A stretch of 64,000 nucleotides of DNA, taken from assembly GCA_023150555.1 (NCBI GenBank), contig JAKLKQ010000016.1, positions 1 to 64,000 on the forward strand. The letters run 5' to 3'. Positions 369-63,906 of the stretch are shown one piece after another (position 1 is the first letter of the stretch; the number at the start of each line of letters is the position of its first letter). Made by a program: the position numbers and the translations under genes. Origin of the DNA: Planctomycetota bacterium. Lineage in GTDB: Bacteria > Planctomycetota > SZUA-567 > H5-PLA8. The notes under the pieces were generated by a model. The model searched no databases, had not been told where the DNA came from, and saw nothing but the letters and a program-made list of their open reading frames with translations.

Positions 369-514
369 AATGCCTCTCAAATAAAGGATGGCCGTTCCGC
401 GCGCAAGGTGCATTCCGCCTCCTTTATACGGGGCCGTCCGGCTTGACAGGCCCCGCCGACGCGGATAACACATCTCCTTGTCCGAATTAGCTTTGGCTTG
501 GGAATTCGTCCGCG

Positions 515-1360
515 ATGAAGATCTACAAGGTATTGCCCGACCTCAAGAAGAAGAAGCACCTTGCCATCTGGCACAAGGCCCTGCGCAGCCAGTGGTCCGC
601 CGAGGATCTCAACTGGAGCGCGCCGCAGCGCATCACCAAGGACAAGCTGAAGGACCAGATGGCCACGATCCTGACGCCGATCCTGATGGGCGAGCAGGCC
701 GCGCTGTACAGCGTCTCCGGACTGATCCCCAAGCTGGGCGCGACGTGCGAGGTCGAGAGCCAATTCTACCTCACGACTTGGGCCGTCGACGAGGCGCGCC
801 ACACCGAACTCTTCGCGCGGTACTACCAGCGCATCGACCGCGAGCCGATGTCCATCCGACGGTATCCGGCCGGGTATCTCTTCCAGAGCGCCATCGTCTC
901 GGAGGACGCCGCCGAGTGGCTCGCGGGCGTGCTTGTCAGCGAGGTCCTCGCGAAGTCGGTGATGGAAGAATTCCGCCGCGTGGACCTGGACCCGGTCCTG
1001 AGCGAGATCGCGCACGGCATCCTGGAGGACGAGGCGCGCCATCTGGGCTTCAACCACATCTACCTCGAGGACCGCTTCGCGACGATGTTCCGCGAGGCCG
1101 CCGCCGAAGGCCGCACCTTCAGCGAGCACCTGCACAAGCGGCTGCAGGCGGTGCTGGCGCTCGTCAATCCGATCTTCGACCGTATGGACGCGGAGATGAA
1201 GGCCATCGGCGTCGACCGCGTCGAGTTGTACGAGAAGGTCGCGAAGGAGGCGCGCCAGCGCCTCGAGAAGTCCATCGCTTGCGGCGAGAAAGTCGCGCTG
1301 GGCAAGGCCTTGGCCGGCGATCCCGCCGAGGCCGCCGCGATCGGGCGACAAACCGTCTGA
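515..1360 (+). CDS. ferritin-like di-iron protein, putative ACP-linked oxygenase/desaturase
   Basis: The 281-residue protein is predicted to be all-helical with the metal-binding pattern of ferritin-like di-iron proteins. GEQAALYS and ESQFYLTTWAVDEARHTELF (E...DEARH) lie near residues 68-110, and a second carboxylate/His motif, ILEDEARHLGF, near 170-180. Two ExxH-type half-sites are what R2-like, AurF-like and soluble desaturase-like enzymes use to bind two irons. It is the first gene of a tight cassette: the ligase starts 5 bp after its stop, and an acyl carrier protein follows. The context suggests it hydroxylates, desaturates or N-oxygenates a carrier-bound acyl group. The exact reaction cannot be read from sequence. 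A longer frame (478-3069) overlaps it in another phase and is noise over this region. Confidence 0.8.
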   Translation: MKIYKVLPDLKKKKHLAIWHKALRSQWSAEDLNWSAPQRITKDKLKDQMATILTPILMGEQAALYSVSGLIPKLGATCEVESQFYLTTWAVDEARHTELFARYYQRIDREPMSIRRYPAGYLFQSAIVSEDAAEWLAGVLVSEVLAKSVMEEFRRVDLDPVLSEIAHGILEDEARHLGFNHIYLEDRFATMFREAAAEGRTFSEHLHKRLQAVLALVNPIFDRMDAEMKAIGVDRVELYEKVAKEARQRLEKSIACGEKVALGKALAGDPAEAAAIGRQTV

Positions 1361-1365
1361 CCGCG

Positions 1366-3069
1366 ATGCCCCGCCCGAACCCCGCACAACCCGAGCGCGC
1401 GTCCGCCGAGGCCCTCCGCAACCTGCCGGCCGCGCTGGAGCGCAGCGCGCGCGAACGCCCGCGCAACGGCTTCCGCATCTACAACCGCCGCGGGAGCGCC
1501 ACCGAGGATCGCAACTACCCGGAGATGCTGCAAAGCGTACGCGCCGCCGCCGCACGCCTTAAGGCCTCCGGCGTCGGTCCCGGCGACCGCGTGCCGGTCT
1601 GCCTGCCCACCGGTTGGCCCTTCGTGGAGGCCTGGTTGGGCGCCGTCTGGCTGGGCGCGCTGCCCGTGGCCATGGCCTACCAGGGCGCGATGAGTTCCGC
1701 CGAGGCCCAGGCCGCCAAGATCGACGCGGTCTGCGAACGCCTGGGCGCCAAACGCCTGGTCTGCGACCCGGCGTTGAAGGCCGAGCTCGTGAAGCTCAAC
1801 GCCCGCCACGCCGGGCCAATCGCGCTGGCGTTCGAGGACTTCGCCGCGCTGCCCGCCGGCGATGTGCCCGCGCACGACGCCGCGACGGAGGACCTCGCGT
1901 TCCTGCAGCTCACCAGCGGCTCGACGGGGATCCCGCGCGCGGTCATGATCCCGCACCGCGCGGTGCTGCACAACCCGATCGCCATCGCCGATGCCGTCGT
2001 CGCGCCCTTCGGCTGTACGCTGCGCGAGCATGTCGACGGCGTCGTCTCCTGGCTGCCGTTGAACCACGACATGGGCCTGATCGGCTGCCTGGCCTTCTGC
2101 ATCGTGCACGGCGTTGACCTGTGGCTGATGCGCTCGGAGACCTTCCTCGCGCGGCCCAAGGTCTGGCTGCAGGCGCTGGGCGGCGGCGCGCGGGTGCTCT
2201 CGCCGTCGCCGAACTTCGCTTTCCAGACCTGCGTCGAACGCCTTAGCGCAGCGGACATCGAGGGCCTCGACCTGCGCAACTGGAAGGGCGCGATGACCGG
2301 CGCGGAGATGGTGCGCCCCGAGACCTGCGCGGCCTTCGGCGAACGCTTCTCGCCGGCGGGCTTCGACCCGCGCGTCTTCCGCCCGTGCTACGGCCTGGCC
2401 GAAGGCACGCTGGCCGTGACCTTCGACCGCACCTGCGCCGGCGTGAAGGTGGCGAAAGTGCCCGCCGGGGCACAACTGGACCTGCGCGAGTCCGTCAGCA
2501 ACGGGCCGGCGGTGCGCGACACGCAGGTCGTCATCACCGCGCCCGACGGAACGGTCCTGGGCGAGGGCTCGATCGGCGAAGTGCGCGCGAAGGGCCCCGG
2601 CATCTTCATGGGCTACTACCGCGACGAACAGGCCAGCGCCGAGTGCCTGGAGGACGGCTGGCTGCGCACCGGTGACCTGGGCTTCCTGAAGGACGGCGAG
2701 TTGTACCTCACCGGACGTACGAAGGAGATCCTCATCATCCACGGCCACAACCTCATGCCGCAGGAGATCGAATGGCACGCCGACGCAGCGGCCGGCGGTG
2801 GCGGCAAGCTGCGCAGCGGCGCGTTCAGCGTGCCGAAGGGCAGCGAGGGCGAACAGGCCGTCGTGGTGCTCGAGACCGACGAACGCGGAGGCGACGCGCT
2901 CGCGGCGCTCGCGCACGAGATCCGCTCGCGCGTGGGCCGCGCGCTCTCGCTGCCGCTCGCGGACCTTGTCTTCGTCAAGCGCGGGCAGATTCCCAAGACC
3001 ACCAGCGGCAAGGTGCAGCGCCTCGAGTTGCGCCGCCGCTACCTCGACGGCAAGCTGGAACGGCTTTGA
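1366..3069 (+). CDS. fatty acyl-AMP ligase (FAAL)-type AMP-binding enzyme
   Basis: The 567-residue ANL-superfamily adenylating enzyme has the P-loop LTSGSTGIPRAV near residue 183, the FAAL-like SWLPLNHDMGLIG, the A5-type region CYGLAEGTLAVTF, the A7 motif WLRTGDLGF, GRTKEILIIHGHNLMPQEIE, and the C-terminal lysine region IPKTTSGKVQR. FAALs activate fatty acids as acyl-AMP and pass them to an acyl carrier protein rather than CoA; an ACP gene follows 22 bp downstream. The ATG at 1366 gives the normal FAAL length. Translational linkage to the upstream di-iron gene is likely. Substrate chain length is unknown. Confidence 0.92.
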   Translation: MPRPNPAQPERASAEALRNLPAALERSARERPRNGFRIYNRRGSATEDRNYPEMLQSVRAAAARLKASGVGPGDRVPVCLPTGWPFVEAWLGAVWLGALPVAMAYQGAMSSAEAQAAKIDAVCERLGAKRLVCDPALKAELVKLNARHAGPIALAFEDFAALPAGDVPAHDAATEDLAFLQLTSGSTGIPRAVMIPHRAVLHNPIAIADAVVAPFGCTLREHVDGVVSWLPLNHDMGLIGCLAFCIVHGVDLWLMRSETFLARPKVWLQALGGGARVLSPSPNFAFQTCVERLSAADIEGLDLRNWKGAMTGAEMVRPETCAAFGERFSPAGFDPRVFRPCYGLAEGTLAVTFDRTCAGVKVAKVPAGAQLDLRESVSNGPAVRDTQVVITAPDGTVLGEGSIGEVRAKGPGIFMGYYRDEQASAECLEDGWLRTGDLGFLKDGELYLTGRTKEILIIHGHNLMPQEIEWHADAAAGGGGKLRSGAFSVPKGSEGEQAVVVLETDERGGDALAALAHEIRSRVGRALSLPLADLVFVKRGQIPKTTSGKVQRLELRRRYLDGKLERL

Positions 3070-3091
3070 GCCAAGCTGAGGAGATCCGACG

Positions 3092-3322
3092 ATGAGCAAG
3101 CAGGACGTGGCGCTGGACGTGCTGGCCAAGGTAAGCGGGCGCGCGCGCGCCGATCTGAAGCCGGAGATGGAACTGGTCGCGGACCTGGGCATCGACTCGC
3201 CCAAGGGCCTGCAGCTGCTCGCCGAACTCGAGGACACGCTCAAGATCGAGATCAGCGACGAAGACGCCGCCGCGATGAACACCGTCGCCGACATCTCCAA
3301 CTACGCAGCCAAGCTGAACTAG
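3092..3322 (+). CDS. acyl carrier protein
   Basis: The 76-residue acidic helical protein carries the phosphopantetheine site DLGIDSPKGLQL, with Ser at about residue 38 as the predicted attachment point. A GAGG-type ribosome site (gctgaggagatccgacg) precedes the ATG. It closes the di-iron/FAAL/ACP cassette and is probably the acceptor of the FAAL product rather than the housekeeping AcpP, because it is not next to fab genes and has DSPKGLQL instead of the usual DSLDTVEL. It ends in TAG, so TAG is an active stop codon here. Confidence 0.92.
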   Translation: MSKQDVALDVLAKVSGRARADLKPEMELVADLGIDSPKGLQLLAELEDTLKIEISDEDAAAMNTVADISNYAAKLN

Positions 3323-11841: not shown

Positions 11842-12675
11842 ATGCTGCTGACCCAGGCGCAACTCGACGAATTCCACGTGCGCGGCTTCGTGAAGGGGCC
11901 CCGCATTCTCGACGACGCGGAGGTTGACAGGCTTCGCGACGAGATGCAGGCCGTGATGGAAGGCCGCACCAAGAACCAGCCCGTCCTCAACCGCAACATG
12001 CTGCAGGGCCGCACCGAGTACGGCGAGGCCAAGCCCACGGACAAGGTCGTCGTGCAGATCGTCAACATCTGGGAAGCGAGCGACGTGTTCCTGCAGCACG
12101 CCAGCCGCCCCGAACTGACCGAAGCCGTAGCGCGGCTGTGCAACAACGCCGAGATCCTGCGCATCTGGCACGACCAGATCCAGTTCAAGCCGCCCAAACA
12201 GGGCGGCCCCACCGGCTGGCACCAGGACTATCCGGCGTGGCCGGTGCTCGCGCCCGCCGACCTGGTCAGCGCCTGGGTCGCGCTCGACGACGCCGAGATC
12301 GACAACGGCGCGATGTGGATGGTGGCCGGCAGCCACCGTTGGGGCAAGGTGCCGCTGCAGAGCGGCCCGAACTTCGAGCCCGTCTACGACAAGGCGCTGC
12401 TGCCGGAAGGCGTCGAGGTCAAGGCCGAGCCGTTTACGATCAAGAAGGGGCAGGTCGGGTTCCACCATTGCATGACCTGGCACGGCTCGCCGGCCAATCT
12501 GAGCGACCGACCGCGCCGCGCCATCGCCGTGCACTACATGCCCGGCTACACGCTCTACGCGCCCGTCCGCCCGCACCCCGTGGAGAAGCACATCACGGTC
12601 AAGCCCGGCCAGCCGGTCGCCGGCGAGAAGTTCCCGGTCGTCTACGATCGCACGAAAGTCGCCGTTACGGCTTGA
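11842..12675 (+). CDS. phytanoyl-CoA dioxygenase (PhyH) family Fe(II)/2-oxoglutarate oxygenase
   Basis: The 277-residue double-stranded beta-helix protein has the HxD iron motif in GWHQDYPAW near residue 128 and the distal His/Arg region in HCMTWHGSPANLS...RRAIAVHYM near 213-233. PhyH enzymes hydroxylate small molecules using Fe(II), O2 and 2-oxoglutarate; bacterial members act on many metabolites and the substrate is not inferable. The gene has a strong ribosome site (aaacggaggc upstream of ATG) and is divergent from an AraC regulator, the usual arrangement of an inducible catabolic gene. A strong terminator follows at 12702. Confidence 0.9.
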   Translation: MLLTQAQLDEFHVRGFVKGPRILDDAEVDRLRDEMQAVMEGRTKNQPVLNRNMLQGRTEYGEAKPTDKVVVQIVNIWEASDVFLQHASRPELTEAVARLCNNAEILRIWHDQIQFKPPKQGGPTGWHQDYPAWPVLAPADLVSAWVALDDAEIDNGAMWMVAGSHRWGKVPLQSGPNFEPVYDKALLPEGVEVKAEPFTIKKGQVGFHHCMTWHGSPANLSDRPRRAIAVHYMPGYTLYAPVRPHPVEKHITVKPGQPVAGEKFPVVYDRTKVAVTA

Positions 12676-12746: not shown

Positions 12747-13616
12747 CTAGGTGCCTGCTTGTACCAGGGTGTCGGCGAGTTCGACCAGCCCGAAGTGCGC
12801 GGCGTCCGCATGCGGCATCGCGCGGTGTTCGGCCTTCAGCCACGCCGCCAGTTCCGGCTCGCGCGCCCATCCCATGTATTGTGCGTAGAGCGTCCGGCCG
12901 TTCGGCCCGCGCGCGCGACCTTCGCTGCCGCCCACGGCGCGGATTTCCGCGGCCTGCTCGGCCAGGTCCAACTTCAGCAGCACGGCGGGCGCGCCGTTCA
13001 CGCGCGGGCAGGGGCGTTCGGCGCCCTGCGTCTTGAAGAGCATCAACCTGCGGTAGAACGCGACGTGCCTCGGGTTGACCTCGATAATGAAGTCCGTGCC
13101 GCGCTCGATGCGCCGCGCATAGACCGAGATGAAGTTGAAGAGGTGCACGAGCAGGCGCTTGTTGTTGGCGTGCGCCTTGTCGATAGCCAGGCGTGTGACC
13201 TCGACCAGCCGGCGCCCTTCGCGGCGCAGTTCCGCCAATTCGTTCGGAAAGAGTTCGTCGCAAGGCAGGCCGCGCGGGCCGTCGAAGACAAGGGTGACCG
13301 TGCCCGCTGCCTCGCCGCGGTCGTCTTCGGCCAGCAGCGTCAGTGTCTTTGAGTCGGCGTCGTAGGGCGCGACGATCATCCTGCCGTCCTCCGCCGCATA
13401 GCCGCGTGCGAGGTATACGCGGTGCGCCAGCTCGTAGGCGCGTTCGCGCGTGGTACGATTCGCGGCGACGCGAATGACGTAGCCGGGGTTTTCGATCCCG
13501 TCCTTTGAAGCGAGCGGCCAGGCGCCCGCCGGGCGTTCGATGTCCTCGCGGATGGCGCGCAGCATCTGGCTGACGGCGGTGGGCCGGTGCAGGCGGAGCG
13601 GGCGGATCTCGGTCAT
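12747..13616 (-). CDS. FeeM-like N-acyl amino acid synthase (copy 1)
   Basis: The 289-residue protein matches the FeeM catalytic core, a GNAT-like fold related to LuxI-type autoinducer synthases. FeeM enzymes join an acyl-ACP fatty chain to an amino acid. Seen here are RERAYELAHRVYLARGYA near residue 56, LTLLAEDDRGEAAGTVTLVF, the Asp/Glu core LVEVTRLAIDKAH near 138, and FIIEVNPRHVAFYRRLMLF near 176. It resembles the protein at 63022-63906 along its whole length. It lies 95 bp downstream of, and on the same strand as, the two tandem sigma-factor genes, so it may be co-transcribed with them. A signalling role is inferred; family membership is well supported. Confidence 0.82.
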   Translation of the reverse strand: MTEIRPLRLHRPTAVSQMLRAIREDIERPAGAWPLASKDGIENPGYVIRVAANRTTRERAYELAHRVYLARGYAAEDGRMIVAPYDADSKTLTLLAEDDRGEAAGTVTLVFDGPRGLPCDELFPNELAELRREGRRLVEVTRLAIDKAHANNKRLLVHLFNFISVYARRIERGTDFIIEVNPRHVAFYRRLMLFKTQGAERPCPRVNGAPAVLLKLDLAEQAAEIRAVGGSEGRARGPNGRTLYAQYMGWAREPELAAWLKAEHRAMPHADAAHFGLVELADTLVQAGT

Positions 13617-63025: not shown

Positions 63026-63906
63026 CGCGCCACCCCGTAACCGAGTCCTGCTCCTCGCCAAGCATCAGCGCCCTCAGCCAGGCCCTGCGCGCAATCCGCG
63101 AGGAAGAGATTCCGGCGCAGGCGGCCGACGAGTTCGGCATGCACGTCGGCGCGCGCGCGGTGCGCTTCGGTTCGGGCCTGGAGTACAGCGTGCGCGTTGC
63201 CGATACGCTCGAACTGCGCCGACGCGCGTGGCGGCTGACCTACGAGTGCTACCGCAAGAAGGGCTACGCGGGCGAGCGAGACGGCGGCCTGTGGTTCGGC
63301 CCCCACGATGCGCGCGAAGAGACCCTGACGCTGCTGTGCGAGCGAAAAGGCCGCGCCGTCGCGACGCTGACGCTGGTCTTCGATTCGTCCTGGCGCCTGC
63401 CCGCCGACGACCTATATGCGCCGGAACTCGAAGCGCTGCGCGCCCGCGGCCGCCGCGTCTGCGAACTGGTCAGCTTGGTCAGCGTCGAGGAAGGCCTGCG
63501 CGGTGCCGAAGTGGTGATGTACCTCTTCAAGCTGGCCTACCTGGCCGCGCGCAGACTCGAGAACGCCACCGACTTCGTGATCACCGTCAATCCGCGCCAC
63601 GCGCCCTACTACGCCAACGCGCTGTTGTTCGCGCAGGTCGGCGGCGAGGTGCCCTGCCCGAAGGTCGGCGGCGCGCCGGCGGTGCTGCTGGGCCTGGACC
63701 TGGTCAACGCCGAAGACGCCTACCGCGCGCGCTACGACGCGCTGCACGGCCGCCGCAACCGCTTCCGCTTCTTCCTGCACGAGGCCGAGACACTGACGGC
63801 GTGGATCGGCGAACGCCGCCGCCCGCTGACGGCCGGCGAGATCGCCCGCTGCTTCCCCGGCGGCGTGCCCGTGCCCGAGTTCGACGCGCTCTCCGCGAGG
63901 GCCTGA
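63022..63906 (+). CDS. FeeM-like N-acyl amino acid synthase (copy 2)
   Basis: The 294-residue protein matches copy 1 throughout: LRRRAWRLTYECYRKKGYAG near 65, LTLLCERKGRAVATLTLVF, RRVCELVSLVSVEEGL near 140 and FVITVNPRHAPYYANALLF near 180, with CPKVGGAPAVLLGLDLV against CPRVNGAPAVLLKLDL in copy 1. ATG at 63022 overlaps the membrane-protein stop; a start at 62989 is possible. An acyl-ACP donor would be needed; no ACP is adjacent here. Confidence 0.82.
   Translation: MTRHPVTESCSSPSISALSQALRAIREEEIPAQAADEFGMHVGARAVRFGSGLEYSVRVADTLELRRRAWRLTYECYRKKGYAGERDGGLWFGPHDAREETLTLLCERKGRAVATLTLVFDSSWRLPADDLYAPELEALRARGRRVCELVSLVSVEEGLRGAEVVMYLFKLAYLAARRLENATDFVITVNPRHAPYYANALLFAQVGGEVPCPKVGGAPAVLLGLDLVNAEDAYRARYDALHGRRNRFRFFLHEAETLTAWIGERRRPLTAGEIARCFPGGVPVPEFDALSARA

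Follow-up and report, generated by a model that had tools for sequence, protein, structure and literature searches.

What is gained by encoding a fatty acyl-AMP ligase (FAAL), an acyl carrier protein (ACP) and a soluble di-iron protein head to tail in one short cassette? The question is raised by a Planctomycetota genome (GenBank assembly GCA_023150555.1), in which the three genes occupy positions 515-3322 of the window, the stretch of 64,000 nucleotides that was analysed and that begins at base 1 of the 114.5-kb contig JAKLKQ010000016.1. The answer that we favour, with a probability of roughly 0.4, is a dedicated acyl-tailoring cassette, in which FAAL and ACP would capture a fatty acid, the di-iron enzyme would oxidise it and a late acyltransferase would transfer the product to lipid A. 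The first gene (515-1360, plus strand) encodes an R2lox-like ferritin-fold di-metal protein of 281 amino acids, assigned by a Pfam AurF match, invariant ligands and an AlphaFold model. It is followed on the same strand by the gene of a 567-residue FAAL (1366-3069), identified by PF00501, by matches in NCBIfam and the Protein Data Bank (PDB) and by its clade with other cassette FAALs, and by that of a dedicated ACP of 76 residues (3092-3322; PF00550), whose Ser36 within a GIDSP motif is the predicted phosphopantetheine site. The Pfam matches and the gaps of merely 5 bp and 22 bp confirm the initial annotation, made from the DNA letters alone, which had recognised three protein families in very tight spacing.

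The three-gene arrangement is conserved and not the product of chance. Among 99 genomes, with that of the window counted, 13 have a di-iron match at E 1e-3 or better. Close relatives (63-78% identity, alignment A1) are encoded by five of the six other genomes of the same family and by G064, a member of another family (65%). Scanning 84,980 species genomes with the di-iron alignment yielded 19 further loci, a lower bound because the scan relied on a pair of short peptide patterns; they are spread over Planctomycetota, Acidobacteriota (Thermoanaerobaculia) and Verrucomicrobiota (Opitutaceae), and the nearest named relatives are Planctomycetota metagenome-assembled genomes (MAGs). The di-iron family is rare: at E 1e-30, sampling of the window's phylum found it in seven of 392 genomes, its own among them, and sampling of the phylum to which the Thermoanaerobaculia MAG G101 belongs found it in three of 396. 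The initial annotation had made its proposal depend on a conserved neighbourhood in related genomes, and the idea survived, with the order di-iron, FAAL, ACP kept on one strand in 10 of the 19 loci (L064, L066, L067, L071, L072, L075, L077, L078, L080 and L081). The di-iron gene is joined by a FAAL with no ACP match in L069 and in L070, whose contig ends, and by an ACP in L076; it stands alone in L068, L073 and L074, while in L065, L079 and L082 a contig end falls in or beside it.

A FAAL search in the eight genomes with an incomplete trio recovered, in six of them, a FAAL 47-59% identical to P0002, the next best reaching 38% at most; the genomes of L079 and L082 contain no such FAAL at E 1e-60. 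At L069 the matching FAAL is the adjacent one, and in the genome of L065 it opens another contig and is followed by an ACP (L103). Thus 17 of the 19 genomes hold both the di-iron gene and a same-clade FAAL; in five, the FAAL lies at another site in the genome or on a separate contig. Di-iron and FAAL distances are correlated across 16 genomes (r = 0.82, as high in none of 5000 permutations), a correlation that is confounded by shared species history. Together the di-iron protein, FAAL and ACP constitute a conserved functional unit. Two irregular copies were encountered as well: at L080 (10001-12564) the match to the di-iron gene and that to the FAAL gene are each broken in two, which suggests frameshifts or sequencing errors, and at a contig edge in G064 (L031, 1-309) a short open reading frame (ORF) fuses the start of a di-iron gene to its C-terminal end and skips what lies between, either an assembly error or a decayed copy.

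The FAAL belongs to the AMP-binding family PF00501 (1.4e-45). Within NCBIfam it scores highest against a subfamily of fatty acyl-AMP ligases (2.7e-113; 379 bits, below the model cut-off of 600), the general CoA-ligase model PRK06187 scores 144, and its best PDB match is a fatty acyl-adenylate ligase (3pbk, 9e-74); judged by these scores, the protein is nearer the acyl-AMP ligases than the acyl-CoA ligases. When 34 sequences were placed in a tree, from which six rows identical to others had been removed, 18 cassette and unlinked FAALs, the window's included, fall into one clade (support 95/94) that is joined next by the FAAL of G064 (100/99), and ten other FAALs from the same genomes lie outside. 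The ACP matches PF00550 (PP-binding, 1.4e-10), and the cassette ACPs are of a recognisable type, judging from a G-x-D-S-P motif that is present in 15 of 15 of them, as against G-A-D-S-L in the fatty-acid-synthesis ACP of the window's genome. G064 encodes a second FAAL-ACP pair (L031, 12082-13952), sister to the cassette FAAL clade (96/96), and behind it on the same strand lies an ORF of 990 codons that is aminotransferase-like by eye.

What kind of oxidising enzyme accompanies this pair? The di-iron protein passes the Pfam threshold for AurF (PF11583; 1.3e-9, 38.1 bits, cut-off 29.6), and the same family is matched at E 0.01 by 16 of 16 homologues. All six predicted metal ligands (E60, E93, H96, E143, E173 and H176, a 2-His/4-Glu set) and the second-shell residues D92 and D172 are invariant in the 16 aligned homologues. 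This alignment leaves out the short, broken or cut genes of L079, L080, L065 and L082 (the L065 sequence is present, as L034, in an earlier alignment of six rows), and distant matches in the phylum (24-31% identity) were kept out of it. An AlphaFold model based on the 16 sequences has a mean predicted local distance difference test score (pLDDT) of 84.1 and a predicted template-modelling score of 0.82, and supersedes a weak first model from six sequences (pLDDT 62.4). Its top structural match in VIA-align is the R2lox protein 7qbp (Z 24.5, root-mean-square deviation 2.6, 252 aligned residues), followed by aldehyde deformylating oxygenases (Z 21.9) and R2-type proteins of ribonucleotide reductase (RNR; 21.6); identity to R2lox in the structural matches is about 14-21%. 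R2lox-type chains are again on top in a sequence-profile search of the PDB (4.8e-10 and weaker). The fold match thereby bears out the earlier view of the oxidising enzyme as a soluble ferritin-like protein.

Candidate families within this fold were nevertheless rejected one after the other. Membership of R2lox was discarded, despite the fold and the 2-His/4-Glu site, since the cross-linking Val72 of GkR2lox aligns with an invariant Ala63 (the position of the Tyr is not alignable) and the NCBIfam R2lox models reach 48 bits at best against a cut-off of 194. The N-oxygenase AurF was discarded despite the Pfam match, since the position of the extra histidine in its 3-His/4-carboxylate site is taken by an invariant Ile169, and only two ligand histidines were found. 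The same isoleucine stands where CylC has its extra histidine, and Asp92 where CylC has a glutamine, which removed that family as well. The aldehyde deformylating oxygenase model PF11266 scores 16.3 bits, short of its cut-off of 28. Although its fold is of the R2lox type, the oxidase makes up a family of its own, set apart from R2lox, AurF and CylC by the residues tested.

The case for lipid A comes from the genes next door. A gene of DUF374 or PF03279 adjoins the cassette, or its FAAL(-ACP), in 10 of 17 readable loci; this count excludes L070, whose contig stops a short way beyond the FAAL, L065, which shares its genome with L103, L079 and L082, both cut off within the di-iron gene or directly behind it, and L078, cut off within the ACP, and takes L068, L073, L074 and L076 by way of the FAAL loci L099, L100, L101 and L102. 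Two distinct acyltransferase families occupy the same place by the cassette. DUF374 follows the di-iron-FAAL-ACP trio in L072, L075, L077, L080 and L081 and the unlinked FAAL-ACP pair in L099 and L101, PF03279 follows the pair in L100, L102 has the order MsbA-FAAL-DUF374, and in G064 a PF03279 gene diverges from the di-iron gene. All eight DUF374 partner proteins scanned exceed the Pfam cut-off and are predicted to be LpxJ, the lipid A 3'-secondary acyltransferase with which DUF374 is equated (PMC6148475). PF03279 genes also lie upstream of L080 and about 1.8 kb upstream of L078, a locus outside the count; waaA, lpxK and a PF03279 gene are found about 6-9 kb upstream of L071, and mlaC, mlaD, a gene for an ATP-binding cassette (ABC) ATPase and mlaE upstream of L077. 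As a control, an acyltransferase gene lies within 1.5 kb of none of ten other FAALs from the same genomes, compared with four of six cassette-clade FAALs with the same flank, and within 1.5 kb of none of the eight AMP-binding loci of the window's genome. Of 15 genomes, 13 have LpxC, and among those that lack it is G002, the only genome of the window's family with no cassette.

In the mechanism that we propose, the FAAL would adenylate a free fatty acid and load it onto the cassette's own ACP, and that this ACP is loaded is very probable. The R2lox-like di-metal enzyme would then oxidise the ACP-bound chain using O2, and acyl-ACP is probably its substrate. R2lox proteins are reported to co-purify with and bind long-chain fatty acids (PMC6060897), and GkR2loxI has been described as an alkane oxidiser or hydroxylase in work with crude recombinant extract (PMC10867098); hydroxylation of the chain is therefore a first guess and not a result. 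At an unactivated carbon it is the likeliest of the candidate reactions, ahead of desaturation and C-C cleavage, and even so we hold it to be doubtful, at odds of about one in three. Finally, a late acyltransferase, LpxJ (DUF374) or LpxL (PF03279), would transfer the modified acyl group to lipid A or to a glycolipid of the outer membrane that resembles it, with an even chance that lipid A itself is the acceptor. The larger proposition, that three phyla share a new form of lipid A tailoring which combines FAAL capture on a private ACP, a new family of R2lox-like acyl-ACP oxidases and installation by LpxJ or LpxL, is put forward tentatively and at somewhat less than even odds.

Several observations weigh against this scheme. 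None of the five loci of the window's own family (the window, L064, L066, L067 and L103) has an adjacent acyltransferase, and DUF374 was found in none of the seven genomes of that family; the partner would therefore have to be sought among three PF03279 genes that lie elsewhere in the window's genome. Immediately adjacent acyltransferases are missing from L069 and L071 too, and LpxC was not found in G004, a cassette carrier with a genome that is 79% complete. PF03279 includes enzymes unrelated to lipid A, and the model for a mycobacterial phosphatidylinositol mannoside (PIM) acyltransferase gives 93.6 bits on the L100 gene (cut-off 209). The fold fits R2lox, aldehyde deformylating oxygenase and RNR R2 alike and leaves the reaction unfixed, and an electron-transfer or redox partner was not recognised near the cassette. 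We know of no lipid structure from any cassette carrier.

The initial annotation had likened the locus to JamABC, which is said to combine a FAAL and an ACP with an oxidising enzyme, JamB, reportedly a membrane desaturase. Part of this comparison stands, in that FAAL, ACP and oxidising enzyme do form a conserved unit; the enzyme of the cassette, by contrast, has a soluble R2lox-type fold, and the nearest known plan is CylABC, not JamABC. In the CylABC and NocLMO systems of cyanobacteria, a FAAL and an ACP are described as serving a soluble di-iron halogenase that works on the ACP-bound chain (PMC12101540, PMC8406957), and the same FAAL, free-standing ACP and soluble ferritin-like di-iron enzyme are encoded together in the window and in the 10 complete loci. 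Unlike these systems, the cassette has neither halogenase motifs nor a visible polyketide synthase (PKS) context and is accompanied by lipid A acyltransferase genes. R2lox provides the best fold match and a common ligand set, whereas an ACP or FAAL partner of R2lox was not seen in the portions of the literature examined. For the last step the closest parallel would be AcpXL-LpxXL of rhizobia, where a dedicated ACP and a late acyltransferase are reported to equip lipid A with an acyl chain that is hydroxylated and unusual (PMC5613085), if that is what the cassette's neighbours mean. There the chain is elongated by fabF1XL, fabF2XL and fabZXL, whereas in the cassette a free fatty acid would be brought in by the FAAL and oxidised by the di-iron enzyme. 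In its first two steps the cassette resembles CylABC and, should its neighbours be taken at face value, it would resemble AcpXL-LpxXL in its last, while being a member of neither.

Could the modified acyl-ACP serve as a starter for a secondary metabolite instead, in the style of CylABC or JamABC and possibly by way of FeeM-like synthases? The gene set does fit CylABC logic (PMC12101540, PMC8406957), and the window contains two FeeM-like genes, at 12750-13616 on the minus strand (PF21926, 1.2e-50) and at 63067-63729 on the plus strand (43% identity), which the initial annotation had suggested as users of the acyl-ACP. This suggestion did not hold up, since a FeeM homologue is near the cassette in none of 32 related loci and lipid A acyltransferases recur in its stead. 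Moreover, in the loci inspected by eye the cassette had no recognisable gene for a PKS or a non-ribosomal peptide synthetase next to it, and the window cassette adjoins housekeeping genes such as gatC, all of which makes a natural-product role unlikely. The FeeM-like N-acyl amino acid synthase gene at 12750-13616 stands tail to tail with a gene for a PhyH-family dioxygenase (11842-12675, plus strand).

Equally, the same acyl-ACP tailoring could end on another outer-membrane lipid, with the acyltransferase acting on a phospholipid, an aminolipid or a glycolipid. DUF374 and PF03279 both lie within broader acyltransferase families, the PIM acyltransferase model scores on the L100 gene, albeit below its cut-off, and the genes upstream of the L077 cassette are those of mla lipid transport. 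Set against this are the lipid A genes waaA and lpxK near L071, MsbA in L102 and the wide occurrence of LpxC noted above; an acceptor of this kind seems improbable.

Far less credible is a role in biotin supply, for which the di-iron enzyme would cleave a long acyl-ACP to pimeloyl-ACP. BioE, likewise a soluble ferritin-like di-iron oxygenase, is reported to convert long-chain acyl-ACP to pimeloyl-ACP (PMC12915131), and BioC reached its cut-off in none of eight genomes, a strict cut-off that only one of 14 control genomes reaches. However, in G064, a cassette carrier, BioB does not reach the cut-off, G002 encodes BioB and no cassette, and no linkage of the cassette to biotin genes was seen, bioB sitting in a run of fab genes at another place in the window's genome. 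The ligand spacing differs too (27-3-69-30-3 in the published description of BioE versus 33-3-47-30-3 in the cassette enzyme), and biotin supply was rejected after searches for BioC, BioB and BioF. The gene run in question (G000:C113, L057, 1698-10096) comprises fabH-, fabG-, acpP- and fabF-like genes, then bioB, then short-chain dehydrogenase/reductase and bioF-like genes. As for a CylC-type halogenase acting on acyl-ACP, the same three kinds of gene and a likewise ferritin-like enzyme speak in its favour, but the metal-site motifs QExxH and HxxDExxH given for such enzymes (PMC12101540) are absent, all 16 of the 16 homologues having Asp92 and Ile169, so that this reading scarcely deserves credence.

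If the FAAL-ACP pair is indeed tied to lipid A acyltransferases, the reach of FAALs would extend to the cell envelope and outer membrane, and the R2lox-like fold would gain a defined protein-bound substrate. FAALs are known mainly from natural-product pathways. The cassette suggests an undescribed route by which the cell surface may be customised, and its di-iron chemistry is directly assayable because an obvious candidate substrate, acyl-ACP, comes with the enzyme. These Planctomycetota, Acidobacteriota and Verrucomicrobiota are uncultivated, and their lipid A is, to our knowledge, undescribed. In the literature collection searched, a single paper, an aminolipid review, mentions both FAAL and lipid A biosynthesis, and its matching passages leave the two unjoined.

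In the window the cassette is flanked upstream by a divergent gene for GatC and downstream by a convergent gene for a membrane-like protein that has no Pfam match. Since the FAAL frame is also open across the entire di-iron gene, mechanical ORF lists contain an 863-residue ORF with a TTG start (478-3069, plus strand), which an automatic annotator could miscall as a single protein; conservation places the FAAL start at or near 1366.

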